Shown: positions 1,225 to 13,474 of the stretch, in pieces | Numbering within the stretch: the first letter of the stretch is position 1 | Layout of the letters: each line of letters starts with the position of its first letter | Source of the DNA: Nitratireductor indicus C115 | GTDB taxonomy: Bacteria; Pseudomonadota; Alphaproteobacteria; Rhizobiales; Rhizobiaceae | Length of the DNA: 64,000 nt | NCBI RefSeq assembly: GCF_000300515.1 | Contig: NZ_AMSI01000003.1 | Span: forward strand, 186,001-250,000 | Direction of reading: 5' to 3' | Translations under genes and position numbers: made by a program | Notes under the pieces: generated by a model | Told to the model about the DNA's origin: nothing | Seen by the model: the letters and a program-made list of their open reading frames with translations, nothing else | Databases searched by the model: none

Positions 1225-1968
1225 TTACCACGGCTGCCTTGCAGGCCCGATCGTGAATTCATTGACCGTTGTGTCTTCAGGCATATCAAGCGCAAAGGCC
1301 ACGACATCCGCTATACGATCAGGTGAAATCCCGAAATTGGCATAGAGCCCCTTCATTGCATCTGCAGTCTGTTGATCGCTGATGGTTCCAAGAAGCTCGG
1401 TGTTGATGGCGGCCGGATAGATCGTTGCCGTCCGGATATTCGTACCCTCCATCGCCGACTCCATGCGCAGAACTTCCATGAAATCGCGCACGAACCATTT
1501 CGTCCCACCGTAAACCGCGCCGCCAGGATAAGCCTTGAGACCAGCAACTGAAGAGGTGGCGAGAATATGACCCGATTTCTGCTTCAGAAATGTCGGCATC
1601 ACCGCCGCCACTCCGTTAAGAACGCCCTTGATGTTCACATCGACCATTCTGTCCCATTCATCCGTCTTGAGCGCGGAGACCGGACTGCTCGGCATCAGGC
1701 CGGCATTGAGGAAAATCGCATCGACACGCCCGAAAGCGTCCATTGCCAAGCGAACGATATCTTCGTTGCTGGACCGGCTGGTCACGTCCAGGGCGCGATG
1801 GATTGCATGACCGCCACCATTGACGATTTCATCTGCGATGGACTTCAGCCTGTCTTCACGTCGCGCGCCGAGAACAACCTTCGCCCCCTCCCCGGCAAGC
1901 CGCTTGGCAGCAGCTTCTCCTATGCCAGAAGAAGCTCCGGTAATGATAACAACTTTGTCTTTGATCAT
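1225..1968 (-). CDS. Short-chain dehydrogenase/reductase (SDR)
   Basis: A 247-residue classical SDR with a Rossmann fold. The cofactor motif TGASSGIG is at residues 10-17, NAG at 88-90, the active-site serine at 139 or 140, and the catalytic YxxxK pair at Y153 and K157. An Arg-Arg pair after the second strand (GARRED) favours NADP(H). Substrate cannot be read from sequence. It lies 31 bp downstream of a cupin gene on the same strand, probably as an operon, and the pair is divergent from a LysR-type regulator at 2497 that is the likely controller. Such cupin-SDR-LysR sets often accompany small-molecule oxidoreduction or detoxification, but that is inference. Confidence 0.9.
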   Translation of the reverse strand: MIKDKVVIITGASSGIGEAAAKRLAGEGAKVVLGARREDRLKSIADEIVNGGGHAIHRALDVTSRSSNEDIVRLAMDAFGRVDAIFLNAGLMPSSPVSALKTDEWDRMVDVNIKGVLNGVAAVMPTFLKQKSGHILATSSVAGLKAYPGGAVYGGTKWFVRDFMEVLRMESAMEGTNIRTATIYPAAINTELLGTISDQQTADAMKGLYANFGISPDRIADVVAFALDMPEDTTVNEFTIGPARQPW

Positions 1969-1999
1969 GGAATTTGAGCCTTACTGGTTTTCAGTTCGT

Positions 2000-2395
2000 T
2001 CAGCGTTCGTATTGTTCATCGGAGACCTGCTCCATCCAATCGACGGTCTTGCCGTCCTGAACTTCCTGGATGGCCATATGGGTCATGGCCGCATGGGGCG
2101 CTGCGCCATGCCAATGCTTTTCACCCGGTGGGAACCAGACCACGTCTCCACTCCGCACTTCTTCAATCGGCCCACCCCAGCGTTGAATACGTCCCGCTCC
2201 CGAGGTGATGACCAAAGTCTGGCCAAGCGGATGGGTGTGCCAAGCCGTACGGGCGCCGGCCTGAAACGTTACGCTCGCGCCTTGAACGCGTTCCTTGTCG
2301 AACGCATTGAAAAGCGCTTCGACATGCACGGTCCCCGTAAACCAATCGGTCGGACCAGGGTTTACGGAGCGGCTTTCAGCACGAATGATCTCCAT
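2000..2395 (-). CDS. Cupin-domain protein
   Basis: A 131-residue single-domain cupin. The first cupin motif appears as [17 protein letters not shown] and the second as [10 protein letters not shown], giving His ligands for a metal. The frame is open further upstream, but the ATG at 2395 is chosen because an AAAGGGA ribosome-binding site sits at a normal distance before it. Proteins of this type are annotated as cupin or carboxymuconolactone-decarboxylase-associated proteins, some with hydroxynitrile lyase activity; the exact reaction is not known here. It is first in a two-gene unit with the SDR and is divergent from the LysR gene across about 100 bp. Confidence 0.85.
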
Positions 2396-2496
2396 GGAAT
2401 GTCCCTTTCTTTTGCTTTGGTCCTCGCAATGTAGGCCGAGATGGTCTATTCGGTTAGGCATCATAATCTGGATGTACTGCTGAGTAATTCTCATCA

Positions 2497-3390
2497 ATGT
2501 CACGGGACGAGCTAAGCGATCTGAGCGCCTTCATCGCCGTTGCCAATGAACGCAGCTTCACAAAGGCAGCTGCCAGGCTCGGAGTGTCGGCTTCCGCCAT
2601 CAGCCATACGATCCGTGCGCTCGAAGAGCGGCTCGGGTTGCGCCTACTGACGCGAACGACCCGCAGTGTTTCAACGACAGAAGCAGGCGAGCGCCTCTTT
2701 CAGTCAATCGCCCCCCATTTCGAGCAAATCCGCACAGAGCTGGATGCGCTGAGCGAACTGCGGGACAAACCGGCCGGCACCATACGCATCAGCTCCGGTG
2801 TTCATGCAGTAGAGACCATCCTGCGGCCACGCCTGGCGGAATTCCTGCCTGAGTTTCCAGACATCAATGTCGAGGTTTCGGTAAATGATGGATTTGTAGA
2901 CATCGTTGGAGAACATTTCGATGCCGGCGTCAGGCTTGGGGAAGCCGTCAGCAAAGACATGATTGCCGTCCGGATAGGACCCGACTGGAGATTTGTCGTC
3001 GTCGGCACACCTGGATATTTCAGCAGGCGTTCACCGCCCGAACACCCAAGCGACCTGACCAATCATCAATGCATCAACCTAAGGCTGCCGTCAGCAGGAG
3101 GCCTTTATGCGTGGGAGTTCGAAAAGGATGGGCGCGAACTTAACGTGAAGGTCAGCGGGCAGCTCGGGTTTGACAGCATCATGCCCATACTGAACGCTGC
3201 CCTGGACGGTCACGGCCTCGCTTATGTTCCAGAGGATCTTGCCCTGTCGCACATTCAGGCGGGGCGGTTACGCATGGTTTTGACCGATTGGTGCCCGTAT
3301 ATCCAAGGATATCACCTCTATTATGCGAACCGCCGCCTGGCAGCGCCTGCATTTGCCAGACTGGTCGACGCACTCAGATACCGCCAATAA
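2497..3390 (+). CDS. LysR-family transcriptional regulator
   Basis: A 297-residue LysR-type regulator. The N-terminal winged helix-turn-helix covers residues 1-62 ([20 protein letters not shown]), followed by a linker helix and a periplasmic-binding-protein-like effector domain from about residue 90. It is transcribed away from the cupin-SDR pair, the usual arrangement for a LysR protein controlling its neighbour. The about 100-bp gap between the two starts should hold the operator. Effector unknown. It is the last host gene before the integrated element. Confidence 0.92.
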
Positions 3391-3671: not shown

Positions 3672-3719
3672 TGGTGGGCCCGGAGGGACTCGAACCCCCA
3701 ACCAAGCGGTTATGAGCCG
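3672..3719 (-). repeat. Attachment site (left): 48-bp tRNA 3'-end copy
   Basis: These 48 bp are identical to 13398-13445, the 3' half of the tRNA(CAU) gene from its anticodon region to CCA. Identity stops sharply at both edges. It is the truncated tRNA copy expected at the distal end of an element inserted by a tRNA-specific tyrosine recombinase. Confidence 0.93.
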
Positions 3720-3856
3720 TATTTCCCCGCTTCTACATGAACCACATGAGATTTCAAGCTACACATTTAAGATATTGATTTAACAGCATAATCCTTTAAC
3801 ATCTGCCAAATCTCCGTCGCATTTGGTTCATTTGACACCACCGAAATGCGTGCTAT

Positions 3857-3876
3857 CTGTAGCTCAATTGTAGCTC
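3857..3876 (+). promoter_or_regulatory. Octamer pair next to left attachment site, possible integrase arm sites
   Basis: TGTAGCTC occurs at 3858-3865 and 3869-3876, 11 bp (one helical turn) apart, just upstream of the integrase start. The same octamer is clustered near the right end (13295-13341). The stretch 3857-3870 also equals the D-arm region of the tRNA target. Possible roles are recombinase arm binding or autoregulation of int. Confidence 0.45.
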
Positions 3877-3882
3877 GCGGGG

Positions 3883-5235
3883 ATGGATATGGCGACGAAA
3901 GCTGACCTCAAAGACACTCACTGTTCGAAGGCAAAGGCGACCGGAAAACGGTACGAAATTTTCGATACGCGCGTGCCCGCATTTGGCATCCGTGTGAGCC
4001 CAAAAGGAGCGGTCACGTTCATCATCTTCACGCGCTTTCCGGGCGGCAAGAGCCCGACGCGCGTTACGCTCGGAAGCTATCCGGCGATGGCGCTGGCCCA
4101 TGCACGCCGCAAGGCGGACGACTGGAAAGACAAAATCAAAGCCGGAACCGATCCCCGACTCGAGGAAGAACAAGAGCGGAAGGCGCTGGAACGAAAGCGC
4201 GTGAACACGTGGAGAGCGGTTGTCGATGACTATATCGCAGACATGCCGAACCGAAAGCGCAATCGCCACATTGAGCAAGACGAACGCGAAATCCGCCGCG
4301 AACTTCTGGAACGCAAGGATCGCAAGACGGGCAAAGTGACGTGGTCAAATCCCTGGGCAGACAAACCTGTGGCGGATATCACCGATAGCGATATTGCCGA
4401 ACTAATCGCCGCCATTCGTGACCGCCCAGCACCCGGAATGGCCTATGTCGCGCTGGGCCACGCCAAGGCAATTTTCGGCTGGGCGATGTGGCCCGAACGG
4501 CGAAGCGGCTACGACCTCGCAGACGACCCAACGCGCAATATCAAACCGAAACACGTCGGACTCGCATCCAAGCAGGACCGCGCCCGTGTCCGCGTGTTCG
4601 GCGATCAGGAAATCCGGGCATTCTGGAAAGCGGCAGATACAACCCCCTACCCGCTCGGTCCATTTTACAAACTCCTGATGCTCACGGGACAACGAAAGAG
4701 CGAAGTGTCCGACGCCAGATGGCCGGAATTCGACCTTACGCGGAACGTTTGGACCGTCCCGCCGGAGCGATTCAAATCCGGACAATCTCATATCGTTCCA
4801 CTGTCATCAGATGCCGTCACGCTGCTCAATTCGCTGGACCGTTTCGAAGGCGAGACTGCGGGCGATTGCCTGTTTTCGACCACGGGGGGCCAAAAACCAA
4901 TCAACGGTTTCAGCCGCGCAAAATCAGCCCTCGACACTGCAATGCTGGCCGCGCTGCGGAAGGACGACCCGGACGCCACCCTCGCCCCCTGGACTTTCCA
5001 TGACGTGCGGCGAACGGTCCGGACTCGCCTGTCGGCATTGAAAGTGAATCGTGACGTGGCCGAACTGGTAATCGGCCACGGCAAGAAGGGTCTCGACCGT
5101 GTTTACGATCACCACGAATTCGAACCGGAAATGCGCGAAGCCCTTGAAAAATGGGCCATCGCGTTGCGCGGGATAGTGAATCCGACGCCTACCGGCAACG
5201 TTACGCGACTCGACGACCATCGGGCGACCGCCTGA
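3883..5235 (+). CDS. int: P4-type tyrosine integrase
   Basis: A 450-residue site-specific recombinase with an N-terminal DUF4102-like arm-binding domain (residues 1-90), a core-binding helical domain (about 105-225) and a C-terminal catalytic domain. The catalytic set is complete: R271 in LTGQRKSE, H373 and R376 in FHDVRRT, H399 in IGHG, and the nucleophile Y408 nine residues later. It presumably integrates and excises the element at the tRNA(CAU) 3' end; it lies 163 bp from the left attachment copy. An alternative ATG six bases downstream (3889) is possible and better spaced from the GGGG upstream. A hairpin terminator follows at 5261. Confidence 0.95.
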   Translation: MDMATKADLKDTHCSKAKATGKRYEIFDTRVPAFGIRVSPKGAVTFIIFTRFPGGKSPTRVTLGSYPAMALAHARRKADDWKDKIKAGTDPRLEEEQERKALERKRVNTWRAVVDDYIADMPNRKRNRHIEQDEREIRRELLERKDRKTGKVTWSNPWADKPVADITDSDIAELIAAIRDRPAPGMAYVALGHAKAIFGWAMWPERRSGYDLADDPTRNIKPKHVGLASKQDRARVRVFGDQEIRAFWKAADTTPYPLGPFYKLLMLTGQRKSEVSDARWPEFDLTRNVWTVPPERFKSGQSHIVPLSSDAVTLLNSLDRFEGETAGDCLFSTTGGQKPINGFSRAKSALDTAMLAALRKDDPDATLAPWTFHDVRRTVRTRLSALKVNRDVAELVIGHGKKGLDRVYDHHEFEPEMREALEKWAIALRGIVNPTPTGNVTRLDDHRATA

Positions 5236-5260
5236 ATTAATACTTATCAATACTTTTAAC

Positions 5261-5296
5261 AGCCCGCCCGGTTTCGCATCGCGGCGGGCTTTGTTT
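5261..5296 (+). terminator. Rho-independent terminator after integrase
   Basis: AGCCCGCC at 5261-5268 pairs with GGCGGGCT at 5283-5290, followed by TTGTTT. It separates int from the alpA-primase unit, so the two are probably transcribed separately. Confidence 0.7.
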
Positions 5297-5440
5297 CGAG
5301 TGCGAAATGACTGGTCTATGCAATAGGCTGACCGGTCGATATTATCAAAATGTAGCGCAAATAACTAACTTAAACACAAAATATGCGAGTATTAAAAGTC
5401 TATTAACACGACATTTAGTGTTTGGTGCTACGAGTGTTTC

Positions 5441-5458
5441 GCATTCGGTGCATTCGGT
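5441..5458 (+). promoter_or_regulatory. Tandem 9-bp repeat upstream of the AlpA-like gene
   Basis: GCATTCGGT occurs twice in direct succession, followed by a third partial match, 20-35 bp before the alpA-like start. A looser version (GCATTTGGTTCATTTG) lies at about 3819-3834 before int. It may be a regulator or excisionase site; this rests on repetition only. Confidence 0.35.
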
Positions 5459-5476
5459 TGAACAGAAAGAAAGGAA

Positions 5477-5677
5477 ATGAAATTGAAATTTTTAAAGATG
5501 AATGAAGTAGTTCAGCGTATCGGATTGAACAAGGCAAGCATCTATCGCCTGATGGCGGCGGGTGAGTTCCCGCGAAGTGTCAAAATTTCAGAAATTCGCG
5601 TCGCATGGATTGAGTCGGAGGTGGACGCGTGGATGGCCGAACGAGTCGCCGCACGCGACGAACGGATCGCAGCGTGA
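5477..5677 (+). CDS. AlpA-family regulator / excisionase-like HTH protein
   Basis: A 66-residue protein matching the AlpA pattern: LKMNEVVQRIGLNKASIYRLM is the winged helix-turn-helix and EVDAWMAERVA the C-terminal helix. AlpA proteins of P4-like satellites and integrative islands activate excision and element genes, and MerR/Xis-like relatives act as directionality factors. Start supported by an AAAGGAA ribosome-binding site. It is the first gene of the rightward replication block. The AT-rich stretch with tandem 9-bp repeats just upstream probably holds its promoter. Confidence 0.85.
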   Translation: MKLKFLKMNEVVQRIGLNKASIYRLMAAGEFPRSVKISEIRVAWIESEVDAWMAERVAARDERIAA

Positions 5678-5742
5678 TGATACGAAAACGGCGACCGATT
5701 TGGAGCCCGGTCGCCGAAAATAGAAAGGATTGAAAGCTAAAA

Positions 5743-6066
5743 ATGTATACTAAAAATAATACAATCTCCAGTGATTGTCAAATTTTCGAGATCACAATTG
5801 GCCGGACGAACGCCGTCGCGGATGACGTGGTTCGACATTTGGTCGCGGCGGGCGTCAAGTTCTATCGGCGAAAACAAGATGATCGGCTAACTGCCCCGAT
5901 TTCAGGCGGTCGCACCGTCGCAGCGACGAACGCCGTTATCCTTCGGGCGGTCGAGCAACGGTGCGAGTTTATCAAAAACGGCAGGCGGGTCGATGCTCCT
6001 GCCGCGCTGGTCACGGCAATACGAATCTCCCCGGTGTGGCCGGATTATCGGGAGGTGCGTCGATGA
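5743..6066 (+). CDS. Small protein of unknown function coupled to the primase
   Basis: A 107-residue protein with no family I recognise. It has a mixed alpha/beta look, with an Arg-rich centre (KFYRRKQDDRL) and no membrane segment. A GAAAGGA ribosome-binding site precedes its ATG. Its stop overlaps the start of the primase gene as ATGA (6063-6066), so the two are translationally coupled and it probably works in replication or its control. Base composition at its 5' end is AT-rich. Confidence 0.7.
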   Translation: MYTKNNTISSDCQIFEITIGRTNAVADDVVRHLVAAGVKFYRRKQDDRLTAPISGGRTVAATNAVILRAVEQRCEFIKNGRRVDAPAALVTAIRISPVWPDYREVRR

Positions 6067-8417
6067 GCGCGCTTCAAACCGCCAAAGAGCTTGCTGAAGA
6101 AGGCTGGCCTATTCTCGCGGCGAACAGCAACAAAATTCCACTCCACAGATGGGGAGAGACGCAACTCACTGCGGAAGATATCGCCCGATATTTCTCCGAT
6201 ACTTCGAATATGGTCGGCATCATCACCGGTCAGCGATCCGGGATATTCGTCATCGACCCGGACGAGAAGGACGGGAAAGGCGGTATTGCCACGTTTCTAG
6301 CGGCTGGAAACGTTCCGGCGACTTTCACGGTCGAAACCCGTTCCGGTGGGCGTCACTATTATTTCCGCCATCCGGGGGCAGGAACGTCAATCGTTACAAA
6401 GTCCGACATCCTCCCCGGCGTGGACGTGCGAGGGGATGGCGGTTATGTCGTGGCGCCCGGTAATGACGGTTATCGGGTTATAGATCGCCGCCCGATTGCC
6501 GACGCGCCGGAATGGCTCCTAAGGCTTGTCGCCAAGCAGGGGCTGCCCGGCGTTGAAACAATCCCGGAACCGATTAACCCACTCACGACTGAAGAACACG
6601 CGAAAGCGCTACGACGTGCTGAAATCTACCTCAGTAACCTCGATGCGAACTGTGACCGGGATAAATGGCTTTCCGCATTGATGGCCGTTCACGCGATGAC
6701 GCATGGAAGTGCTGAAGGCTTCGAAGTCGCTGACCGATGGAGCGCCACCGGGGGTGAACGCTACAAGGGCTCCAAGGACGTTGCGCGACGATGGCGGTCC
6801 TTCACGTTTGATCGTACCGGCGGGATTGGTGAAGGCACGTTGCGTCACCTGACCCGGGGAACCAATGCCGCGCTCGAAATCGCGTTTCCCGATATTCCTG
6901 TGGGTAATTTTTTGCCGATAGCGTCAGAGGCACCAAGGGAACGCCCGAAGGTTTATCTATCAGTCGAACTGCACGAGGTCGCTGACATTACGGAAGCAGC
7001 GCTGATTGCAGACGGAACGCCTTTCTACCAGCGGGGAGGAACCCTTCGGCAGCCGGTCCAAACCGACGCCGGGATGATCCTTTCCGAAGTTGAGGCGCGG
7101 ACTGTTCAAGATAAGATGTCGCGGGCGGCACGCTTCATCGTTGTTTCGGATGATAAGAAAACGGGCAAGCCTGTCGAGTCACAGGTCAAGCCCCCTTTGG
7201 AAATCGCGTCAATTATAATGTCGCGAAACGCCGAGTGGAAATTCCCCGTAGTCAACGGCATTATTTCCGCGCCGACCATGCGACCCGATGGCAGCCTGAT
7301 CCTGCGATCCGGCTTCGATGCTGCAACGGGCCTTATCGTTTCCGAGTCGATTGATCTGCCCGTTATCTCGGAAACGCCGACACGGGATGAGGCGCTGACA
7401 GCCTTGCAGCTTATTCGCGACCTGTTCAATGAGTCCCCGTTCAAGGATGAAGCGTCACGAACCGTTGCCGTGTCGGCTGTCATGACGGCAGTGCTCCGTG
7501 GTGCGCTGGATCGTGCGCCGCTTCACGCTTTTTCAGCGCCAGAGGCCGGAACTGGTAAGTCGTTTGCTTGCGATATTGCCGCTGCCGTCATCTATGGCTC
7601 CGATTCAATGCGCTCAATCTCGATGGGATCACGTCACGAAGAATTTGAAAAACGACTCGTGACGGAAATCATGGCGGGTCAGCCCACGATCTTGATTGAT
7701 AACGTCAACAGGGCGATGGGCGGCGAGTTCTTCTGCCAAGCCATTGAACGACCTGAAGTGTCTATGCGCGTTCTTGGTAAATCGGAAAGTCGGACAGCGC
7801 GGAACACCCACACGCTATTTGCCACCGGGAACAATCTCCGAGTTCTTGATGACGTGGTGCGGCGTACCGTCCGGGCGCAACTCGATGCTGGAATGGAATC
7901 TCCGTGGCGTCGAAAGTTCACCGGCAACCCCATTGCCACCGTCCGCGCCGACCGTGGGCGTTATCTCGCTGCGGTTTTCACTATCGCCAGAGCGTATGCG
8001 GCAGCCGGTGAGCCTGTCGTTGCCGACTCGTTTGGTTCATTCGGTGAGTGGTCGCGGCGGGTCCGTCAGCCGTTGATTTGGCTCGGAATGGCCGATCCGT
8101 TGCTCACGCAAGATGAGTTAAAAAGCGATGATGACGCTCGCGACGTGCTGGCGATAGTACTGGCAAATTGGCCTACCGGGCAGATTTATACCGCCCGCGA
8201 ACTTGTCAGTGAGGCCAATTCGGTAAGCACGGAATTTACGGCGGCGCTTCAACAGGTCCCCGCAGGGTCCCCGCAAGGGTCCCCGCTTGACGTTCAAAAA
8301 CTGGGCACTTGGCTCAAAAATAACGCCGGTAAAATTATCGACGGGCGTAAAATTGTCTTCGAGAAAGACAGTCACACGAAGACTAATAAATACCGCGTGG
8401 AATTAGCTGGATTTTAG
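6063..8417 (+). CDS. Bifunctional primase-polymerase / helicase-like ATPase replication protein
   Basis: A 784-residue replication protein. The N-terminal archaeo-eukaryotic primase (prim-pol) domain shows the metal-binding D65 and D67 in VIDPDE, SGGRHYYF with H98, and GVDVRGDGGYVVAPG. A linker follows, then a P-loop ATPase with Walker A EAGTGKS near residue 496 and Walker B ILIDN near 544, likely a ring helicase as in P4 alpha or SaPI Rep. The ATG at 6063 is chosen over a longer upstream frame because it overlaps the preceding stop codon (ATGA). The end of the gene already contains three copies of an iteron that continues past the stop codon, so the protein probably acts on an origin lying next to its own gene. 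Confidence 0.9.
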   Translation: MSALQTAKELAEEGWPILAANSNKIPLHRWGETQLTAEDIARYFSDTSNMVGIITGQRSGIFVIDPDEKDGKGGIATFLAAGNVPATFTVETRSGGRHYYFRHPGAGTSIVTKSDILPGVDVRGDGGYVVAPGNDGYRVIDRRPIADAPEWLLRLVAKQGLPGVETIPEPINPLTTEEHAKALRRAEIYLSNLDANCDRDKWLSALMAVHAMTHGSAEGFEVADRWSATGGERYKGSKDVARRWRSFTFDRTGGIGEGTLRHLTRGTNAALEIAFPDIPVGNFLPIASEAPRERPKVYLSVELHEVADITEAALIADGTPFYQRGGTLRQPVQTDAGMILSEVEARTVQDKMSRAARFIVVSDDKKTGKPVESQVKPPLEIASIIMSRNAEWKFPVVNGIISAPTMRPDGSLILRSGFDAATGLIVSESIDLPVISETPTRDEALTALQLIRDLFNESPFKDEASRTVAVSAVMTAVLRGALDRAPLHAFSAPEAGTGKSFACDIAAAVIYGSDSMRSISMGSRHEEFEKRLVTEIMAGQPTILIDNVNRAMGGEFFCQAIERPEVSMRVLGKSESRTARNTHTLFATGNNLRVLDDVVRRTVRAQLDAGMESPWRRKFTGNPIATVRADRGRYLAAVFTIARAYAAAGEPVVADSFGSFGEWSRRVRQPLIWLGMADPLLTQDELKSDDDARDVLAIVLANWPTGQIYTARELVSEANSVSTEFTAALQQVPAGSPQGSPLDVQKLGTWLKNNAGKIIDGRKIVFEKDSHTKTNKYRVELAGF

Positions 8418-8520
8418 CGGGGACCTGCGGGGACCTTGCGGAGGCTTGTTTTTCCGGTCCCCGCATAATTGTTCTTTATTTTACAAGGTGTTGCGACGCT
8501 TTGCGGGGACTGCGGGGACC
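8255..8520. other. Iteron cluster, candidate replication origin of the element
   Basis: The nonamer GGTCCCCGC or its complement occurs at 8255-8263, 8266-8274, 8278-8286, 8417-8425, 8427-8435, 8456-8464 and 8512-8520, with an 8-of-9 copy at 8503-8510. Copies are spaced 9 to 12 bp within groups, in opposite orientations on the two sides, and flank an AT-rich stretch at about 8465-8490. This matches the layout of SaPI origins, where Rep iterons flank an AT-rich unwinding region directly after rep. No gene is seen from 8418 to 8773. Confidence 0.7.
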
Positions 8521-8773
8521 CTTTTACATTTTAAGTGTTTTTCATTCATATCTATACCCTCCCTCATGGTGTGCTGGAATCCCAACAGCCGGGAACTCCA
8601 CAAAGCTCCCCGCACCCGCCCGCAACTGGTAATTGGCAGGTCGAAACGCCCGCTCTTCGCATCCTCCGGTCCCTTAACATTTTTCACTCACAACACCGAT
8701 CAGCGGCTTACAACCGCGTGGTTATATGACTTAACCTTCTCAATACATTGAATCATATGCTATTCAAGAGGAA

Positions 8774-9226
8774 ATGAAAGCTACAAATGAGCTACATTTA
8801 ATGAATTTGACGACGAAAAATACCCTCAGTTCCGCCCCCGGTATGCCTGGGCTACCGGGCATGAACGTGCCAACCGCAACGCCGAAGCGGGCCGATACGA
8901 AGAAAGCGCGACTTTTGTCGCTTGACGATTTGGACAAACGCACCGCAGCAGCGCGCTATGCGTTCGACCTTCGTGATAGTGTCATCGCCGATCTGGGCGG
9001 TGAAGGCTCTCTCAGCGCCATTAAACTGGAAATGGCGTCATCGCTCGCCGTCATGTCCGCAATGATTTCCGACGCGTCGGCTCGGTTCCTGCGCGGCGAA
9101 CAGATCGATCCGGGCAGCGTGGCGACTCTTGTCAATTCACGCAACCGCACCGCGCAACTTCTCGGCATGGATCGTGTGATGAAGGATGCGAACGATCTTG
9201 ATGCGTACATCGCAGGGAGGGCGTGA
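8774..9226 (+). CDS. Unknown protein, possible terminase small subunit
   Basis: A 150-residue soluble protein. An N-terminal low-complexity stretch rich in Gly, Pro and Thr leads to a helical region from residue 50 (LDDLDKRTAAARYAFDLRDS) ending in NRTAQLLGM. Size, helical character and position, two genes before the terminase large subunit in a tightly coupled unit, fit a small-subunit DNA-recognition role. I see no clear HTH signature, so this is inference from context. A GAGGAA sequence lies very close to the ATG; a second in-frame ATG at 8801 could be the true start. Confidence 0.65.
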   Translation: MKATNELHLMNLTTKNTLSSAPGMPGLPGMNVPTATPKRADTKKARLLSLDDLDKRTAAARYAFDLRDSVIADLGGEGSLSAIKLEMASSLAVMSAMISDASARFLRGEQIDPGSVATLVNSRNRTAQLLGMDRVMKDANDLDAYIAGRA

Positions 9227-9426
9227 TGGTGGCTGATCCCTATGCCCTCGCTGTGTTGCGCCAGACCGCAGACGAACTGTTGCAGGACGGTAAGATGAGC
9301 CGCCTCGCGACGTTCACAACGCGTCTGTTCATCGAAGAGATGGAACGCACCGCCGAACGTACGAACTATGAGCGCCGGTTTGCATTCGTCGCGCGTGGCC
9401 TTGAAGCCGTGGAGGCCGGGCGATGA
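9226..9426 (+). CDS. Small protein of unknown function upstream of terminase
   Basis: A 66-residue helical protein of no family I recognise. The ATG at 9226 overlaps the preceding stop (TGATG) and has a GGGAGG ribosome-binding site, which decides against the GTG three bases earlier. Its own stop overlaps the terminase start (ATGA, 9423-9426). Coupling on both sides suggests a stoichiometric partner of the packaging complex. Confidence 0.65.
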   Translation: MVADPYALAVLRQTADELLQDGKMSRLATFTTRLFIEEMERTAERTNYERRFAFVARGLEAVEAGR

Positions 9427-10940
9427 TTGGTCTGTCCAAGAAACTCACCATCCGTGAAGCCCTGCACGAACCGAAGCTGCTTGGTCATGCGCTGCCGGGT
9501 GACTCATGGCTCCCGTGGCGCACGATGCTTGTTGCGATCATGGGCGAGGAACTGACGGACGATGAACGCGCGATCTATCGCCAGTTTACCGGACGTGACG
9601 CCGAACCGGGCTTTATCCCTGCCGAGTTCTTCGCGGTAGCTGGTCGTCGCAGCGGAAAGACTCGGGCCGCTGGCACCCTTGCGGCGTTCGTGGGCACCTG
9701 TGTGGACCATTCCGCGTACCTCTCCAGTTCCGAACGTGCCACGATCCCCGTTATGGCCGTTTCGACCGTACAGGCACAGAAAGCGTTCAGCGCCTGTATG
9801 CTGCTGGAAGATAGCCCGATCCTGTCCAAGCAGATCGATACGTCGAACAGCGAAACCATCCGCCTCAAGACCCGCTGCGATATTGAGGTCCGCCCCGGTA
9901 ATCAAAAGACCATTCGCGGCATCACTAGCCCGCTGGCTATCGCGGATGAGATTGCCCACTTCTACACCGAGGGCGTATTGACCGATGCGGGGCTGCTGGA
10001 CGCTGTGCGGCCATCTCTCCAGTCCGGTAAGCACCACGGCCCGCTTGTGGCTATCTCCAGCCCATGGGGGCCGAAGGGCGAGCTATACGATGCGTTTGCC
10101 AAGCATCACGGCCCGAACGGTGATGCTGATATTGTGGTGGCGAAGGGTTCGTCGCTGGAATGGAACAGCACGCTTGATCCTAAGACCGTGCAGCGCGCTA
10201 TGGAGCGTGACGCCGCGATGGCTGACGCAGAATGGAACGGCAATTTCCTCGCTTCAGTGCTGAATATTTTCACAATCGACGGCCTGAACGCCATCACCGA
10301 TATTGGCGTGACGGAGCGTGAGCCGATCCCAGGCATTCGATACGCAGCCTATGCAGACCCGAGCGGCGGCACCGGACTGGACGGCTTCACGCTCACTATC
10401 GCGCACATGGAAGATGGCGTTGTGGTTTTGGATTTGATCCGTGAGACCCTCGCGCCGTTTAATCCTGAGCAGATCGTGGAAGCCTACGCAGCCGACTTGA
10501 AGCGCTACGGCGTGCGCACAATCCAAACGGATCGATACGCTTCGGCATGGAACAGCACATCGTGGGTGCGACACGGCATCGCGCACCGCCCGAGCACAAA
10601 AACTGCGTCGGAATTGTTCGCCGCGCTCCTGCCGGTTGTGAATGCTCAGAATATTCGGCTCTTGGACGATGAGAAGCTGCGTCGGCAGGCGCTAGGGCTG
10701 GAACGTCGCATTTCATCTGGTGGGAAACAGCAGATCGGACACGGCAGAAGCATTCACGCGCATGATGACATTGTGAACGCCGTTGCGGGTGTCTCGTATG
10801 CGCTGACGAAGCCCGCCGCCCATCCGAAATTCGCACTCGCAGCACCCGCATTCAGCCTCAATGGTGGCGAGTTTTCAATGACTTACGCCGATCACAGCGC
10901 GCATGATCCTGCAAGTTTTGGAGCGTCGCGGAGCCGTTAG
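9423..10940 (+). CDS. Phage terminase large subunit
   Basis: A 505-residue packaging motor. The ATPase domain has a Walker A at residues 73-80 (AGRRSGKT) and a Walker B ending in D175-E176 (LAIADEIAH). The RNase-H-like nuclease domain keeps its acidic residues: D312 in YADPSGG, D370 in IQTDRYA, and D448/D449 in HAHDDIVNA. The protein appears complete and catalytically intact. Its presence without any portal or capsid gene is unusual: Gram-positive pathogenicity islands normally bring only a small subunit and borrow the helper's large subunit. It is coupled to the two small genes before it. Confidence 0.9.
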   Translation: MIGLSKKLTIREALHEPKLLGHALPGDSWLPWRTMLVAIMGEELTDDERAIYRQFTGRDAEPGFIPAEFFAVAGRRSGKTRAAGTLAAFVGTCVDHSAYLSSSERATIPVMAVSTVQAQKAFSACMLLEDSPILSKQIDTSNSETIRLKTRCDIEVRPGNQKTIRGITSPLAIADEIAHFYTEGVLTDAGLLDAVRPSLQSGKHHGPLVAISSPWGPKGELYDAFAKHHGPNGDADIVVAKGSSLEWNSTLDPKTVQRAMERDAAMADAEWNGNFLASVLNIFTIDGLNAITDIGVTEREPIPGIRYAAYADPSGGTGLDGFTLTIAHMEDGVVVLDLIRETLAPFNPEQIVEAYAADLKRYGVRTIQTDRYASAWNSTSWVRHGIAHRPSTKTASELFAALLPVVNAQNIRLLDDEKLRRQALGLERRISSGGKQQIGHGRSIHAHDDIVNAVAGVSYALTKPAAHPKFALAAPAFSLNGGEFSMTYADHSAHDPASFGASRSR

Positions 10941-10987
10941 CGCAGGGGCTATGCAATATACCGAATCGCGTGATAATACTTCAAATC

Positions 10988-11488
10988 ATGAGTAAGACAA
11001 AAGAAAAATTATCCGCATCCGAAGAGCTTGAGCGCTTAAACGCATTTCACGCGGAACAGGTCCGTGCATTGTCTCCTCTTGTCGAAGAAGAACGGCAGGC
11101 GGAACTTGAGAGAAAGCGCGTTGAAGAGGAAAAGAAGCTCGAAGGCCGCAAGGTCGAGTGTCAGGAACTGGCAAAACATCTTATCGATGTAAGCGAAAAA
11201 CTTGACAAGGCGGTCGATGCGACACGTCGGGCGCTGCTGGAGCGCCGGGAAATTTATCGGGAAATTGCTGAAAAATCCCGACCGTTCCGGGAATTTCCCC
11301 ATCTTGGCACGGTCGATACTCGCAGTGCTTACTACGAAACGAACCTTCGAAGCGGACTCAATGCCAACGGAATGTTGAAGGCCTGTCGAATCGACCATCA
11401 TTCGGACGGCACTCCGTTTTTGTCGCAGGACGTTCGCACGCTTCATCGCTGGCTTTCGCCGGAAGATATTAAGCGAGCGAAGGCATGA
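10988..11488 (+). CDS. Coiled-coil protein of unknown function
   Basis: A 166-residue protein. Residues 1-95 are strongly charged (Glu, Lys, Arg) and predicted coiled coil; the remainder is a small globular tail ending in LHRWLSPEDIKRAK. The ATG at 10988 is preferred to a GTG at 10970, though neither has a strong ribosome-binding site. It lies just after the terminase and is coupled by ATGA overlap to the next gene. A scaffold-like or capsid-redirecting role would fit the location but has no direct support. Confidence 0.6.
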   Translation: MSKTKEKLSASEELERLNAFHAEQVRALSPLVEEERQAELERKRVEEEKKLEGRKVECQELAKHLIDVSEKLDKAVDATRRALLERREIYREIAEKSRPFREFPHLGTVDTRSAYYETNLRSGLNANGMLKACRIDHHSDGTPFLSQDVRTLHRWLSPEDIKRAKA

Positions 11489-11928
11489 ACGACCTCGACC
11501 GCTTCACCTCATCCGAAATTCATAAATTTGGCCTGACGTCCGGCCTGCTCGCAGCCGTTCGACTCGGTCATGTCGGCGGAACTTCCACGGCGGCGGACGG
11601 CTCGATGCTGGATGTTGCCGGACGGCTCGACAGCACCAAGGCCAAGCCCGTCGAGAAATCACATGCTCGCGGTCCGAACATCATTGACGGTGCCGCAACT
11701 ATGAAAAAAGCCCGCGAATTGGGCATTGGAAAAAAGGAAGAAACTTCGATGACTTATGACGAACTTGTAAAGTCTTATAGCGAGAAATGGGACGTCACCG
11801 AACAGGAGGCGGCTATCCGACTGCTTAAACAGCGGCCCGATCTGATGGCGAAATCTTACGAGTCTGAGGAAAGCGCCTACCGGCAGCGTCTCGAAGAGAA
11901 GCACGCGACAATGTATCCGAACGGTTGA
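11485..11928 (+). CDS. Unknown protein, possible head- or scaffold-associated
   Basis: A 147-residue protein overlapping the preceding gene by ATGA. The first 80 residues are Gly/Ala/Ser-rich and probably disordered. The C-terminal 60 residues (TYDELVKSYSEKWDVTEQEA and onward) loosely resemble the short helical tail found at the end of some phage head-maturation or scaffold proteins. No confident family. It is followed by a hairpin terminator at 12028, marking the end of the replication-packaging unit. Confidence 0.6.
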   Translation: MNDLDRFTSSEIHKFGLTSGLLAAVRLGHVGGTSTAADGSMLDVAGRLDSTKAKPVEKSHARGPNIIDGAATMKKARELGIGKKEETSMTYDELVKSYSEKWDVTEQEAAIRLLKQRPDLMAKSYESEESAYRQRLEEKHATMYPNG

Positions 11929-12027
11929 CAAGTGGTTGGTCGAACCGGTTTGCGTGGCGGTTTTCTCCCACCGTCCGCCGGTTCGCCCCTCAGCAGCCGC
12001 AACTTTGCCCGGAGTTGCGGAAAACAA

Positions 12028-12058
12028 CGCCCCGAGTTGTCCGATCTCGGGGCGTTTT
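12028..12058 (+). terminator. Rho-independent terminator closing the packaging unit
   Basis: A 9-bp perfect stem (12028-12036 with 12046-12054) with a 9-nt loop is followed by TTTT. It lies 100 bp after the last gene of the rightward unit. Confidence 0.7.
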
Positions 12059-12079
12059 GCGTTGTGAGGATTTTTGAAA

Positions 12080-12277
12080 ATGGCAAAGACGAGACGCGAT
12101 GAGGATTTGCTGACGCCCGCGCAGAAGCGATTGGCCCGGCGGCTTGCTAGCGAAGGCTACGAACTTTGCGCAATTGCTGATCGCTATGGCTTGACCGAGT
12201 CCGCGCTTGATGAGGTGTTAAACTCAATCGTCGCGACGGATTGGGCTAAGCGCTTCCGTGAGCTTTCGCGGGACTAG
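12080..12277 (+). CDS. Small HTH-like protein
   Basis: A 65-residue protein. The segment CAIADRYGLTESALDEVLNS fits a helix-turn-helix, preceded by a basic start. A TTG six bases upstream extends the frame, but the ATG at 12080 is the natural start, with a GAGGA ribosome-binding site. It probably binds DNA as a small regulator. It overlaps the oppositely oriented membrane-protein gene tail to tail by 4 bp. Confidence 0.55.
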   Translation: MAKTRRDEDLLTPAQKRLARRLASEGYELCAIADRYGLTESALDEVLNSIVATDWAKRFRELSRD

Positions 12278-12540
12278 AAATTTGGTTCCCTTCGAATCGC
12301 CGGAGCGTTTTCAGGGGACGGATTCTCCGATCCGGCGAGTTTTCTAAGATGGCTTTCGATCAACGACAAATAAGCAACGTACCCGCAGATTAGTACTGCA
12401 GTGAGCGCTCCAACGACAAATCCGATTGATGCTCCGAAGCCTGATAAGGCCCGATAGCCGAAATACGTAAAGCCGAGTACTACGACTATCGCGATTGCGA
12501 TGTTGAGCGCCGAAAGTGCGTCCGCGAGAATCCGGTTCAA
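12274..12540 (-). CDS. Small two-helix membrane protein
   Basis: An 88-residue protein with two hydrophobic segments (about residues 12-32 and 38-62) and a polar, Pro/Glu/Arg-containing tail. It begins at TTG: an AGGGGAGG ribosome-binding site is 7 bases before this TTG, whereas the ATG of another frame overlaps that site. It is the only leftward gene of the element and so is probably expressed independently, for example from the integrated state. Function unknown. Confidence 0.55.
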   Translation of the reverse strand: MNRILADALSALNIAIAIVVVLGFTYFGYRALSGFGASIGFVVGALTAVLICGYVAYLSLIESHLRKLAGSENPSPENAPAIRREPNF

Positions 12541-12805
12541 TGTACATCCTCCCCTATGAAGGTACGCAGATCAGCATAAGGGCAGCGTGCATTCAAGGAT
12601 CGCCAACCCAAGCGAGCGTTGCATTGATCTGAACGCGGGCGTCGATCATCATCGAACTACTGACTCAAATAGCTCACCTGATCGCCGTCGAGATCGATGA
12701 CGAAGAAGAATAGTTGCTTGACGGCCCACTCGTCGTAGTGCGCAATGCCGCGTTATCTCGGTAGTTACTGCGCGGTAGCATAGCTTGCGGATTTAAGAGG
12801 TCTTC

Positions 12806-13219
12806 ATGAACCCCAGAGATGAATTCTTAGGGTGCTTTTCTATAGCAGGGTTCGCTTGGGTGGTCGCCGCTTTGTTCATGTTTGTGTTCCCGGCGCTTCC
12901 CGGTCATTTTTGGGATTACGGGATTAAGCACCACCTTGACAACGTTGTCGCGGTGGCTCTGTCCTCCGGCTTTTTCTCATTTGGCGCGTTTGTTCTTGGG
13001 GGGCTTATTTTCAGCGCTCTTTGCGGCGTGGTTTTTGGATACCTGTCGTCATTCGTGCCAGTGAGGATCAGGGACTTTGTGTCAGCGAACTTCCCTCCAC
13101 GCAGCCCTCTTGGCTTGTTCGTCACGTTGGTCCTAGTCGTTGCATTTTTGATCGGTGTGGTGGCTTCTACATATCTGCTGGCCTTAATGGCCCTCTTGAC
13201 AGGTTCCGCCCTGATTTAA
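12806..13219 (+). CDS. Membrane protein of unknown function at the right end of the element
   Basis: A 137-residue integral membrane protein with about four hydrophobic segments (near residues 12-32, 47-68, 70-85 and 103-135). An AGAGG ribosome-binding site precedes the ATG. No family recognised. Position next to the attachment site, outside the replication-packaging unit, is typical for cargo such as superinfection exclusion or defence genes, but nothing in the sequence shows that. The 265 bp upstream (12541-12805) hold no visible gene. Confidence 0.55.
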   Translation: MNPRDEFLGCFSIAGFAWVVAALFMFVFPALPGHFWDYGIKHHLDNVVAVALSSGFFSFGAFVLGGLIFSALCGVVFGYLSSFVPVRIRDFVSANFPPRSPLGLFVTLVLVVAFLIGVVASTYLLALMALLTGSALI

Positions 13220-13294
13220 CCAGCGGGCCATCTGCCCAAGCGCACGACGCTGTCATTTTGCAGAGTGAATCTGCCGCTGGCAACGAAACACTGT

Positions 13295-13341
13295 GAGCTA
13301 CAAAGCTACAACGTTCAGTCTTGTAGCTCAAAATGTAGCTC
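13295..13341. promoter_or_regulatory. Octamer cluster near the right attachment site, possible integrase arm sites
   Basis: GAGCTACA at 13295-13302 and AAGCTACA at 13303-13310 are inverted relative to TGTAGCTC at 13322-13329 and 13334-13341. The same octamer is paired at 3858-3876 near the other end. Arrangement close to both ends fits arm-type binding by the integrase. Confidence 0.45.
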
Positions 13342-13397
13342 AATTTTCCACAACAAAACCGGGATGAAATCTAAAATATTGTTTTTATTAGATTTTC

Positions 13398-13445
13398 TGG
13401 TGGGCCCGGAGGGACTCGAACCCCCAACCAAGCGGTTATGAGCCG
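13398..13445 (-). repeat. Attachment site (right): 48-bp copy within intact tRNA
   Basis: Identical to 3672-3719. The 5' part of the tRNA (13446-13474) has no second full copy, which shows that this is the junction where the tRNA remains whole. Confidence 0.93.
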
Positions 13446-13474
13446 CCGGCTCTAACCAATTGAGCTACAGGCCC
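13398..13474 (-). tRNA. tRNA with CAU anticodon, probably tRNA-Ile2 (lysidine type); attachment target
   Basis: A full 77-nt cloverleaf including encoded CCA. The 7-bp acceptor stem begins GGGCCTG, the D arm GCTC/GAGC, the anticodon stem GGCGG/CCGCT has loop CTCATAA (anticodon CAU), and the T arm is standard. By anticodon alone it would be called tRNA-Met. The anticodon arm resembles E. coli tRNA-Ile2, and the C4-G69 and C5-G68 pairs are known TilS recognition features, so tRNA-Ile read as AUA after lysidine modification is more likely. Its last 48 bases are the right copy of the attachment repeat, so the gene was restored on integration. Confidence 0.93.

Follow-up and report, generated by a model that had tools for sequence, protein, structure and literature searches.

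An Integrated Element in a tRNA-Met Gene

We analyzed a 64,000-nt stretch of the Nitratireductor indicus C115 genome (GCF_000300515.1, contig NZ_AMSI01000003.1, positions 186,001-250,000; hereafter the window), which holds an integrated element of 9,726 bp, measured repeat to repeat, with a G+C content of 55.4% against 59.7% for the whole window. The element is bounded by an exact 48-bp direct repeat. The left attachment site (attL, 3672..3719) is a copy of the 3' part of a tRNA-Met gene, and the right one (attR, 13398..13445) lies inside the tRNA-Met (CAT) gene itself, predicted by ARAGORN at 13398..13474 on the reverse strand, which is the integration site. Reading from attL, the order is integrase, AlpA, g3, PrimPol, iterons, g5, g6, the large terminase subunit (TerL), g8, g9, g10, g11, and g12. 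The main frames are all open, and every gene except g11 lies on the forward strand.

The tyrosine integrase (3883..5235), which has an arm-binding domain (PF00589, 7.8e-15; PF13356, 3e-14), is followed by an AlpA-type regulator or excisionase (5477..5677; PF05930, 2.4e-18; phrog_2790). A replication role is assigned to a 784-aa PrimPol-PriCT2 protein (6063..8417; PF09250, 3.9e-26; PF08707, 6e-16), whose C-terminal part is of P-loop type and in which GTGKS and LIDN motifs are present. A cluster of eight GCGGGGAC iterons in both orientations (8256..8519) is the probable origin: the entire 64 kb holds nine copies of this word, eight of them here, and at most three arose in 100 mononucleotide shuffles of 8100-8773.

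The 48-bp core has an exact copy in 10 of 10 congeners, each within a tRNA-Met gene, and no relative of the window TerL was found in these ten genomes. The element is an insertion in the 3' end of tRNA-Met. A homolog of the window gene at 71-1105, whose protein is built of repeated Cys-rich modules, lies near that tRNA-Met in two of the ten congeners (L094, L095). The window's left flank (1225-3390) was not found at the tRNA-Met of these two, so the congener site is not a clean empty site.

A Probable Packaging Module

TerL (9423..10940, 505 aa) matches phrog_2 at 7.3e-16, and its match to Terminase_6N (2.6e-4) falls short of Pfam's own cut-off. A profile built from 12 TerL sequences, the window's included, matches solved TerL chains at E 2e-4. 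Invariant across the 12 aligned sequences are G74, R75, R76, G78, and K79 (Walker A), D175-E176, D312, D370, and D448-D449, which we take to be ATPase and nuclease motif residues.

Upstream of TerL stand g5 (8774..9226, 150 aa) and g6 (9223..9426, 67 aa, no family in Pfam or PHROGs), and g5, g6, and TerL are joined serially by ATGA overlaps, g6 standing between the other two. Across the 25 elements with set ends described below, the g5 stop and the TerL start overlap by exactly 4 bp in 11. Its position and its conservation as a partner of TerL make g5 a probable small terminase subunit (TerS). A preliminary description of this DNA had placed an integrase, an AlpA-like regulator, a prim-pol protein, iterons, and a complete TerL coupled to two small genes between 48-bp repeats. 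The repeats, the Pfam and PHROGs matches, and the motifs bear this out, the coupled pair being g5 and g6; g3, g8-g9, g10, g11, and g12 are additional to its list.

A Family of g5-TerL Elements in Alphaproteobacteria

We found TerL matches (E<=1e-3, some partial) in 8 of 347 genomes sampled from the order, 5 of 385 from the class, and 17 of 395 from the family, the window's own genome being included in each sample, and at 24 loci of named genomes; some genomes are repeated across samples. Six of 72,556 plasmid records matched, four over more than 80% of the length. One of these, Komagataeibacter nataicola plasmid pKNA06 (L089), encodes this TerL together with ParA, a VapE-domain protein, a recombinase, and DUF2213; at 25.8 kb, the record has two TerL matches and repeated genes, as in a tandem duplication. 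Among 50,697 phage records, TerL matches were at best 30.7% identical. A single-sequence TerL query returned zero matches among viral contigs, and alignment queries succeeded.

After exclusion of L018, L058, and L059 (weak or partial TerL) and L022, and removal of six duplicates (L062, L063, L072, L074, L079, and L081, equal to L040, L041, L042, L044, L012, and L043, respectively), 47 loci remained. TerL was called in 45 (not in L067 and L087), g5 in 42, and an integrase in 41. Genes of the relatives come from a home-made codon-usage caller, which leaves small genes and start positions approximate; for the window, the 12 genes were defined manually.

Ends could be set by att repeats for 25 elements, the window's included. 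All 25 carry an integrase, 23 carry g5, 22 lie at a tRNA site, 17 have a replication gene of one of two families, and 12 have AlpA; TerL is present by construction, and the integrase also helped in judging the bounds. The 22 are bounded by a repeat at the tRNA gene, just 14-19 bp long in seven (L055, L061, L066, L068, L069, L077, L080), and L060, L040, and L044 by 15-17 bp repeats without a tRNA, which is weaker. Sizes run from 9.8 to 17.7 kb; the repeat search admitted 6-18 kb alone, so size is no evidence against decay. We group these g5-TerL elements as a distinct family of putative satellites, with an integrase, the g5-TerL module, att bounds, and no detectable portal, and the window element has all of these features.

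IMG/VR contains another clade of the TerL, spread over 51 loci; of 50 that were gene-called, 40 yielded TerL and 16 yielded g5. Eleven g5-less contigs carry a portal by profile, and six of them measure 51 kb or 54-116 kb (L135, L144, L148, L150, L161, L163). Judged from these predicted genes, the TerL is shared with uncultivated phages. The 54-kb contig L148 combines a replication-protein profile match with this TerL family, a portal, a protease, and a capsid gene, and is a possible phage relative of the module's source. On the TerL tree, presence of g5 requires 10 label changes against 21.6 after shuffling (none of 500 as low), a count that near-copies on the tree favor. Thus g5 goes mostly with integrase-bearing loci, and the separation is imperfect: g5 also occurs in L127, L129, and L131, contigs that reach 84 kb and have no set element ends.

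Portal, Capsid, and Tape-Measure Genes

No portal was detected at E<=1 among 1,133 called proteins of the 47 loci with two profiles, beyond which other portal types could be missed; the same profiles do recover portals, in 12 viral contigs including L130 and in three loci of the window's own genome. In 21 bounded elements, 133 proteins encoded downstream of TerL were scanned, and no portal appeared among the Pfam families listed (10 of 10 for a set of 43, the best 25 of 26 for a set of 90). In contrast, 62 of 65 proteins downstream of TerL in 19 IMG/VR contigs, selected as g5-less, gave 11 matches to Phage_portal_3 and three to Phage_portal. In the window element itself, the ten genes other than g11 and g12 showed no match to portal, capsid, tail, or lysis families in Pfam or PHROGs. 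The first description, of a satellite layout that includes TerL and lacks a recognizable capsid, is supported by both the family scans and the portal profiles.

Other structural genes are unevenly distributed among the relatives. At least 3 of the 25 bounded elements have capsid genes downstream of TerL, of HK97 type in L045 and L068 and of a different type in L080. Tape-measure proteins were recognized in bounded elements by PHROGs (L043, L077, L080, L083), by gene family (L045, L076), and weakly in L014 and L069, and also in the unbounded loci L015, L041, L042, and L047; large proteins of L053 and L064 gave no tape-measure match. A PHROGs scan of 108 of 124 downstream proteins, some beyond element ends, returned single matches, whose owners are not named, to head protein, head protease, head morphogenesis, neck, tail-fiber, and lysis families. 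Three of the multi-protein scans, in which unrelated proteins were pooled solely to scan many together, list the best 25 of 42, 51, and 49 families.

The capsid and tape-measure genes of these distant relatives match unlike families, and the differences among the best-matching tape-measure families suggest that such genes may have been acquired repeatedly. Ten short loci combine TerL with a tape-measure gene and no detectable portal, most of them without a recognized capsid gene. We know of no satellite that sets its own tail length.

A Compact Lineage Under Purifying Selection

In the TerL tree, the window element groups with L060 of Rhizobium leguminosarum USDA 2370 and with L040 and L044, two elements of Corticibacterium sp. 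UT-5YL-CI-8 (support 100/99). All four share the order large replication protein, repeat cluster, g5, TerL, g8-like gene, and g9-like gene, the extras being g6 in the window and, in L040, a 76-aa gene that separates the g8-like from the g9-like gene. No capsid or tape-measure genes were seen in the three relatives.

The shared genes downstream of TerL are small. The charged, helical-looking g8 (10970..11488, 172 aa) overlaps g9 at 11485-11488 and has a related gene in the corresponding position of L060 (pairwise identity 30% over 81 aa, E 8e-5); compared by profile with the other downstream families, it gave P <=30 throughout. g9 (11485..11928, 147 aa) has a C-terminal domain related to the scaffold-like proteins of L060, L040, and L044 (hhalign P 92, E 7e-7; 26% identical to that of L060, with pairwise blastp E values for g9 of 2e-5 and 1e-4, the latter for L060). 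An 82-aa protein at the same place in L060 is related to g10 (12074..12277, 67 aa; 40% over 57 aa, E 1.5e-8), and g5 is 53% identical between the two elements by pairwise blastp (E 1e-44).

The replication proteins are mosaic. The C-terminal 528 residues of the window protein match L040 at 52%, and the N-terminal parts of L060 and L044 are 58% identical to each other and 36-38% identical to that of L040. The L040 gene at 5865-8408 fuses an L060/L044-like N-terminal half to a window-like C-terminal half. The L060 protein matches solved DNA primases (E 5e-12). Repeat clusters sit at the same place in L060, L040, and L044; the core TCCCCGCA is common to the window and L040 (seven copies, same place), and other words are used in L060 and L044, so that the repeat core follows the C-terminal part of the replication protein.

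The remaining genes of the window element are g3 (5743..6066, 107 aa), which overlaps the PrimPol start and has no credible family in Pfam or PHROGs, and two hydrophobic-looking accessory open reading frames, g11 (12274..12540, reverse strand, 88 aa) and g12 (12806..13219, 137 aa).

Between the window and L060, TerL is 47% identical, and third codon positions are 33% alike, compared to 28% after shuffling. Corresponding identities are 56% for g5 and 46% for the replication proteins of the window and L040, third positions overall being 31-33% alike against 27-29% when shuffled. With third positions near random, the ratio of nonsynonymous to synonymous substitution rates (dN/dS) was not computed, and codon-position identity was used in its place. 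Protein conservation alongside near-random third positions shows that the genes are under purifying selection and not in decay, as had been proposed from gene integrity and coupling; the order kept in four elements agrees.

These data bear on whether the element is a decaying prophage, a full phage that lost its portal, capsid, and tail and kept TerL by chance. Contigs with portals do carry the same TerL family, and some relatives retain capsid or tail genes downstream of TerL, an arrangement that the preliminary description would have taken as the mark of a deletion derivative. Such genes are confined here to more distant relatives (tape-measure genes, and capsid genes in the minority noted above). 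Because they belong to unlike families and the three nearest relatives show none of them, simple derivation by deletion is not the explanation that fits best. Given also the reduced layout kept in four elements, the codon-position pattern, the open frames, and the tie of g5 to integrase-bearing elements, we consider decay improbable.

Helper Candidates and a Scaffold-Like Protein

Three sequences of L060 are shared with the same nine Rhizobium phages of 67.8-69.4 kb (RHph_Y21, Y52, Y60, Y5A, Y2_4, TM3_3_9, TM3_3_10, TM3_3_13, and RHEph19). First, over its N-terminal 344 residues, the L060 replication protein is 69-83% identical to the phages' primase-domain protein, the next phage standing at 41%. 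Second, its g9-like protein begins with 34-45 residues that show 63-77% identity to the start of a 363-aa phage protein, whose gene adjoins the prohead protease gene and lies two genes before the major capsid gene. A place before the capsid gene is the usual scaffold position, as in the C-Nu3-D-E order of lambda. Third, the product of L060 gene 12988-13308 is 65-81% identical to a small phage protein whose gene neighbors one for head morphogenesis. The second and third sequences match, at E<=1e-3, just those nine of the 50,697 phage records. We nominate the nine phages as candidate helpers of L060; the sharing could also reflect past recombination, and the third link speaks for a satellite relationship.

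The likeness to the N-terminus of the scaffold-position protein is strong in L060, weaker in L040 and L044, and lost in the window g9. Roseobacter phage RDJL Phi 1 and Erythrobacter phage R6L have a protein with a similar start two genes before the capsid gene, a weak match (E ~0.1). In L044, the g9-like protein aligns to the final 39 positions of the S78 prohead protease family, a sub-threshold match (E 0.0016). The preliminary description saw a terminase alone, a view that these data revise: g5 accompanies TerL in nearly all bounded elements, and g9 is a relative of scaffold-derived-looking proteins.

The window's own genome holds three capsid-plus-portal loci, L114 (C34), L115 (C33), and L116 (C16), two of which we take to be prophage-like and one to resemble a gene transfer agent cluster. 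The own-genome prophages were rejected as helpers, the best E value between window genes and the genes called there being 0.14. Against the protease-capsid gene of C33, the g9-like proteins of L060, L040, and L044 reach only E 0.014-0.021.

A Probable Satellite With Its Own Terminase

We consider the window element probably a phage satellite of a distinct alphaproteobacterial family, which would use its own terminase with the proheads of a helper. The integrase inserts the element into the 3' end of tRNA-Met, as is evident from its anatomy. By analogy with known satellites, a helper phage or stress would derepress it, and AlpA would promote excision. The PrimPol protein would then replicate the circle from the iterons. 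The motifs, coupling, and conservation of the module suggest that g5, acting as TerS, would select the element's DNA, and that its own TerL would cut and pump it. Because the element encodes neither portal nor prohead, TerL would dock on a helper-made portal and prohead. As a relative of shortened scaffold-like proteins, g9 may steer prohead assembly, perhaps toward a smaller head, and the helper would provide the tail and lysis. Relatives contribute additional components themselves, in many cases a tape-measure protein.

Several observations weigh against this interpretation. The 7.8-kb contig L130 (IMGVR_UViG_3300022665_001254) carries g5, TerL, capsid, and portal together; as the sole locus seen with that combination, it may represent an ancestor or else a capsid-forming cousin. 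Among the bounded elements, capsid genes may be more frequent than the three seen. No credible match to g5 was found in Pfam, PHROGs, or the PDB, and no TerS profile recognized it. The window TerL sits on a long branch (1.68), and the TerL alignment of the compact lineage found no viral contig in IMG/VR. The window replication protein has no detectable similarity to those of L060 or L044, and the window integrase has little to the integrases of L060, L040, and L044, so that synteny at these genes is one of function and place; the unlike replication proteins speak somewhat against the tightness of the compact group. The C-terminus of the g9 group is only weakly similar to the phage scaffold-position protein (hhalign P 7%, E 0.005, a score that exceeds those of 40 column shuffles), and the window g9 alone gives no match to it (P 0.5%). 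Finally, the helper link concerns L060 and not the window element. Among sequenced phages, window g8, g9, and g12 have no match (g12 at E<=0.1), and the PrimPol protein has just distant matches among the phages listed (~25-30%); because g9 matches no phage record and the PrimPol matches are distant, no helper can be named for the window.

It is also conceivable, if unlikely in our judgment, that a helper's terminase packages the element through pac or cos mimicry and that the g5-TerL pair has a different function, for instance to interfere with packaging of the helper. Helper terminases package PICIs (phage-inducible chromosomal islands) and P4, according to the available portions of two sources (PMC6092414, PMC10690885), and under self-packaging the window TerL would need to fit a foreign portal. 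However, the ATPase and nuclease residues are both conserved, which interference alone would hardly need, and g5 adjoins TerL in 23 of 25 elements.

Beyond the satellite reading of the window element, we see roughly even odds for a broader proposal, that satellites of this family replace the helper's whole motor, not just its selector, and borrow the portal. Lineages would then differ in the parts that they supply themselves: a mini-scaffold in the compact lineage of the window element, a tape-measure protein in many others, and a capsid with protease in a few. Parts would be taken from the helper, and in L060 the primase domain and the start of the scaffold would come from its own helper group, the nine Rhizobium phages. 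Terminase and portal are normally a matched pair, and a motor without a portal makes portal-motor compatibility directly testable. Material for this is at hand in the TerL matches across genomes and in one element of a cultured Rhizobium with sequenced candidate helper phages.

Comparison With Known Systems

The known systems are compared here as they appear in the available portions of the cited sources. Placement in an existing family, whether of PICIs, capsid-forming PICIs (cf-PICIs), or P4-like elements, is very improbable. The integrase, AlpA, primase, and origin do stand in PICI-like order, but TerL occurs here without portal and capsid, whereas cf-PICIs encode capsid, protease, portal, connectors, TerS, and TerL, PICIs sometimes have TerS, and P4 uses the P2 terminase (PMC10690885, PMC6092414). 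The window element resembles cf-PICIs in being an integrated satellite with its own TerL. Of the major capsid protein, protease, portal, connectors, HNH, and TerS of cf-PICIs (PMC10690885), its ten scanned genes include a probable TerS alone, g5 being TerS-like by position and conservation.

Gram-negative PICIs such as EcCICFT073 likewise have int, alpA, a primase, and an adjacent origin. Some PICIs carry TerS, and the source as available describes no TerL and packaging by the helper (PMC6092414). Against the rule of at most an own small terminase subunit, the window element encodes a complete TerL. P4 is also an integrated satellite with a primase. It has the capsid-size scaffold Sid and is packaged by the P2 terminase (PMC10690885), unlike the window element with its own TerL. 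Phage-inducible chromosomal minimalist islands (PICMI) are similarly small, with int-alpA-primase and no capsid genes, but are described from Vibrionaceae, beside fis, with no identifiable packaging genes (PMC10803314); the window element lies at tRNA-Met and has TerL. The Streptomyces phage satellites MulchRoom and MiniFlayer encode both small and large terminase subunits, but also portal, capsid, and scaffold genes and, in the text available, no primase (PMC10690885), unlike the window element.

In the open-license literature, we found no description of a portal-less, TerL-bearing satellite family of Alphaproteobacteria, and the family is apparently unnamed. It may account for some rhizobial 'incomplete prophages'. 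In a survey of 1,860 Hyphomicrobiales prophages, the incomplete ones contain few head genes and many integrase and tail genes, although terminase genes are also lost, which does not fit this idea (PMC11080155, as available).

The preliminary description knew of no rhizobial family with this layout. That statement holds for the literature searched, with the qualification that similar genomes were reported in a 2015 virome study (PMC4490671). Separately, a 16.7-kb partial genome from an enrichment culture, Virus Rctr16k (KX853514.1, L088), has an integrase, a replication gene, and a tail protein in a layout similar to that of the window element; its terminase is distant (27%). The group 8 cryoconite genomes of Bellas et al. 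2015 (ML_43_3791 and others) did not appear in TerL searches of the phage collection. Termed putative satellite phage-plasmids, they are 14-16 kb circles from a DNase-treated, virus-size fraction (PMC4490671). One of them has an integrase, prim-pol, terminase, resolvase, and tail gene, a likeness by description alone, and, as far as the available text of that study goes, group 8 is the nearest prior sighting of such an element (PMC4490671).

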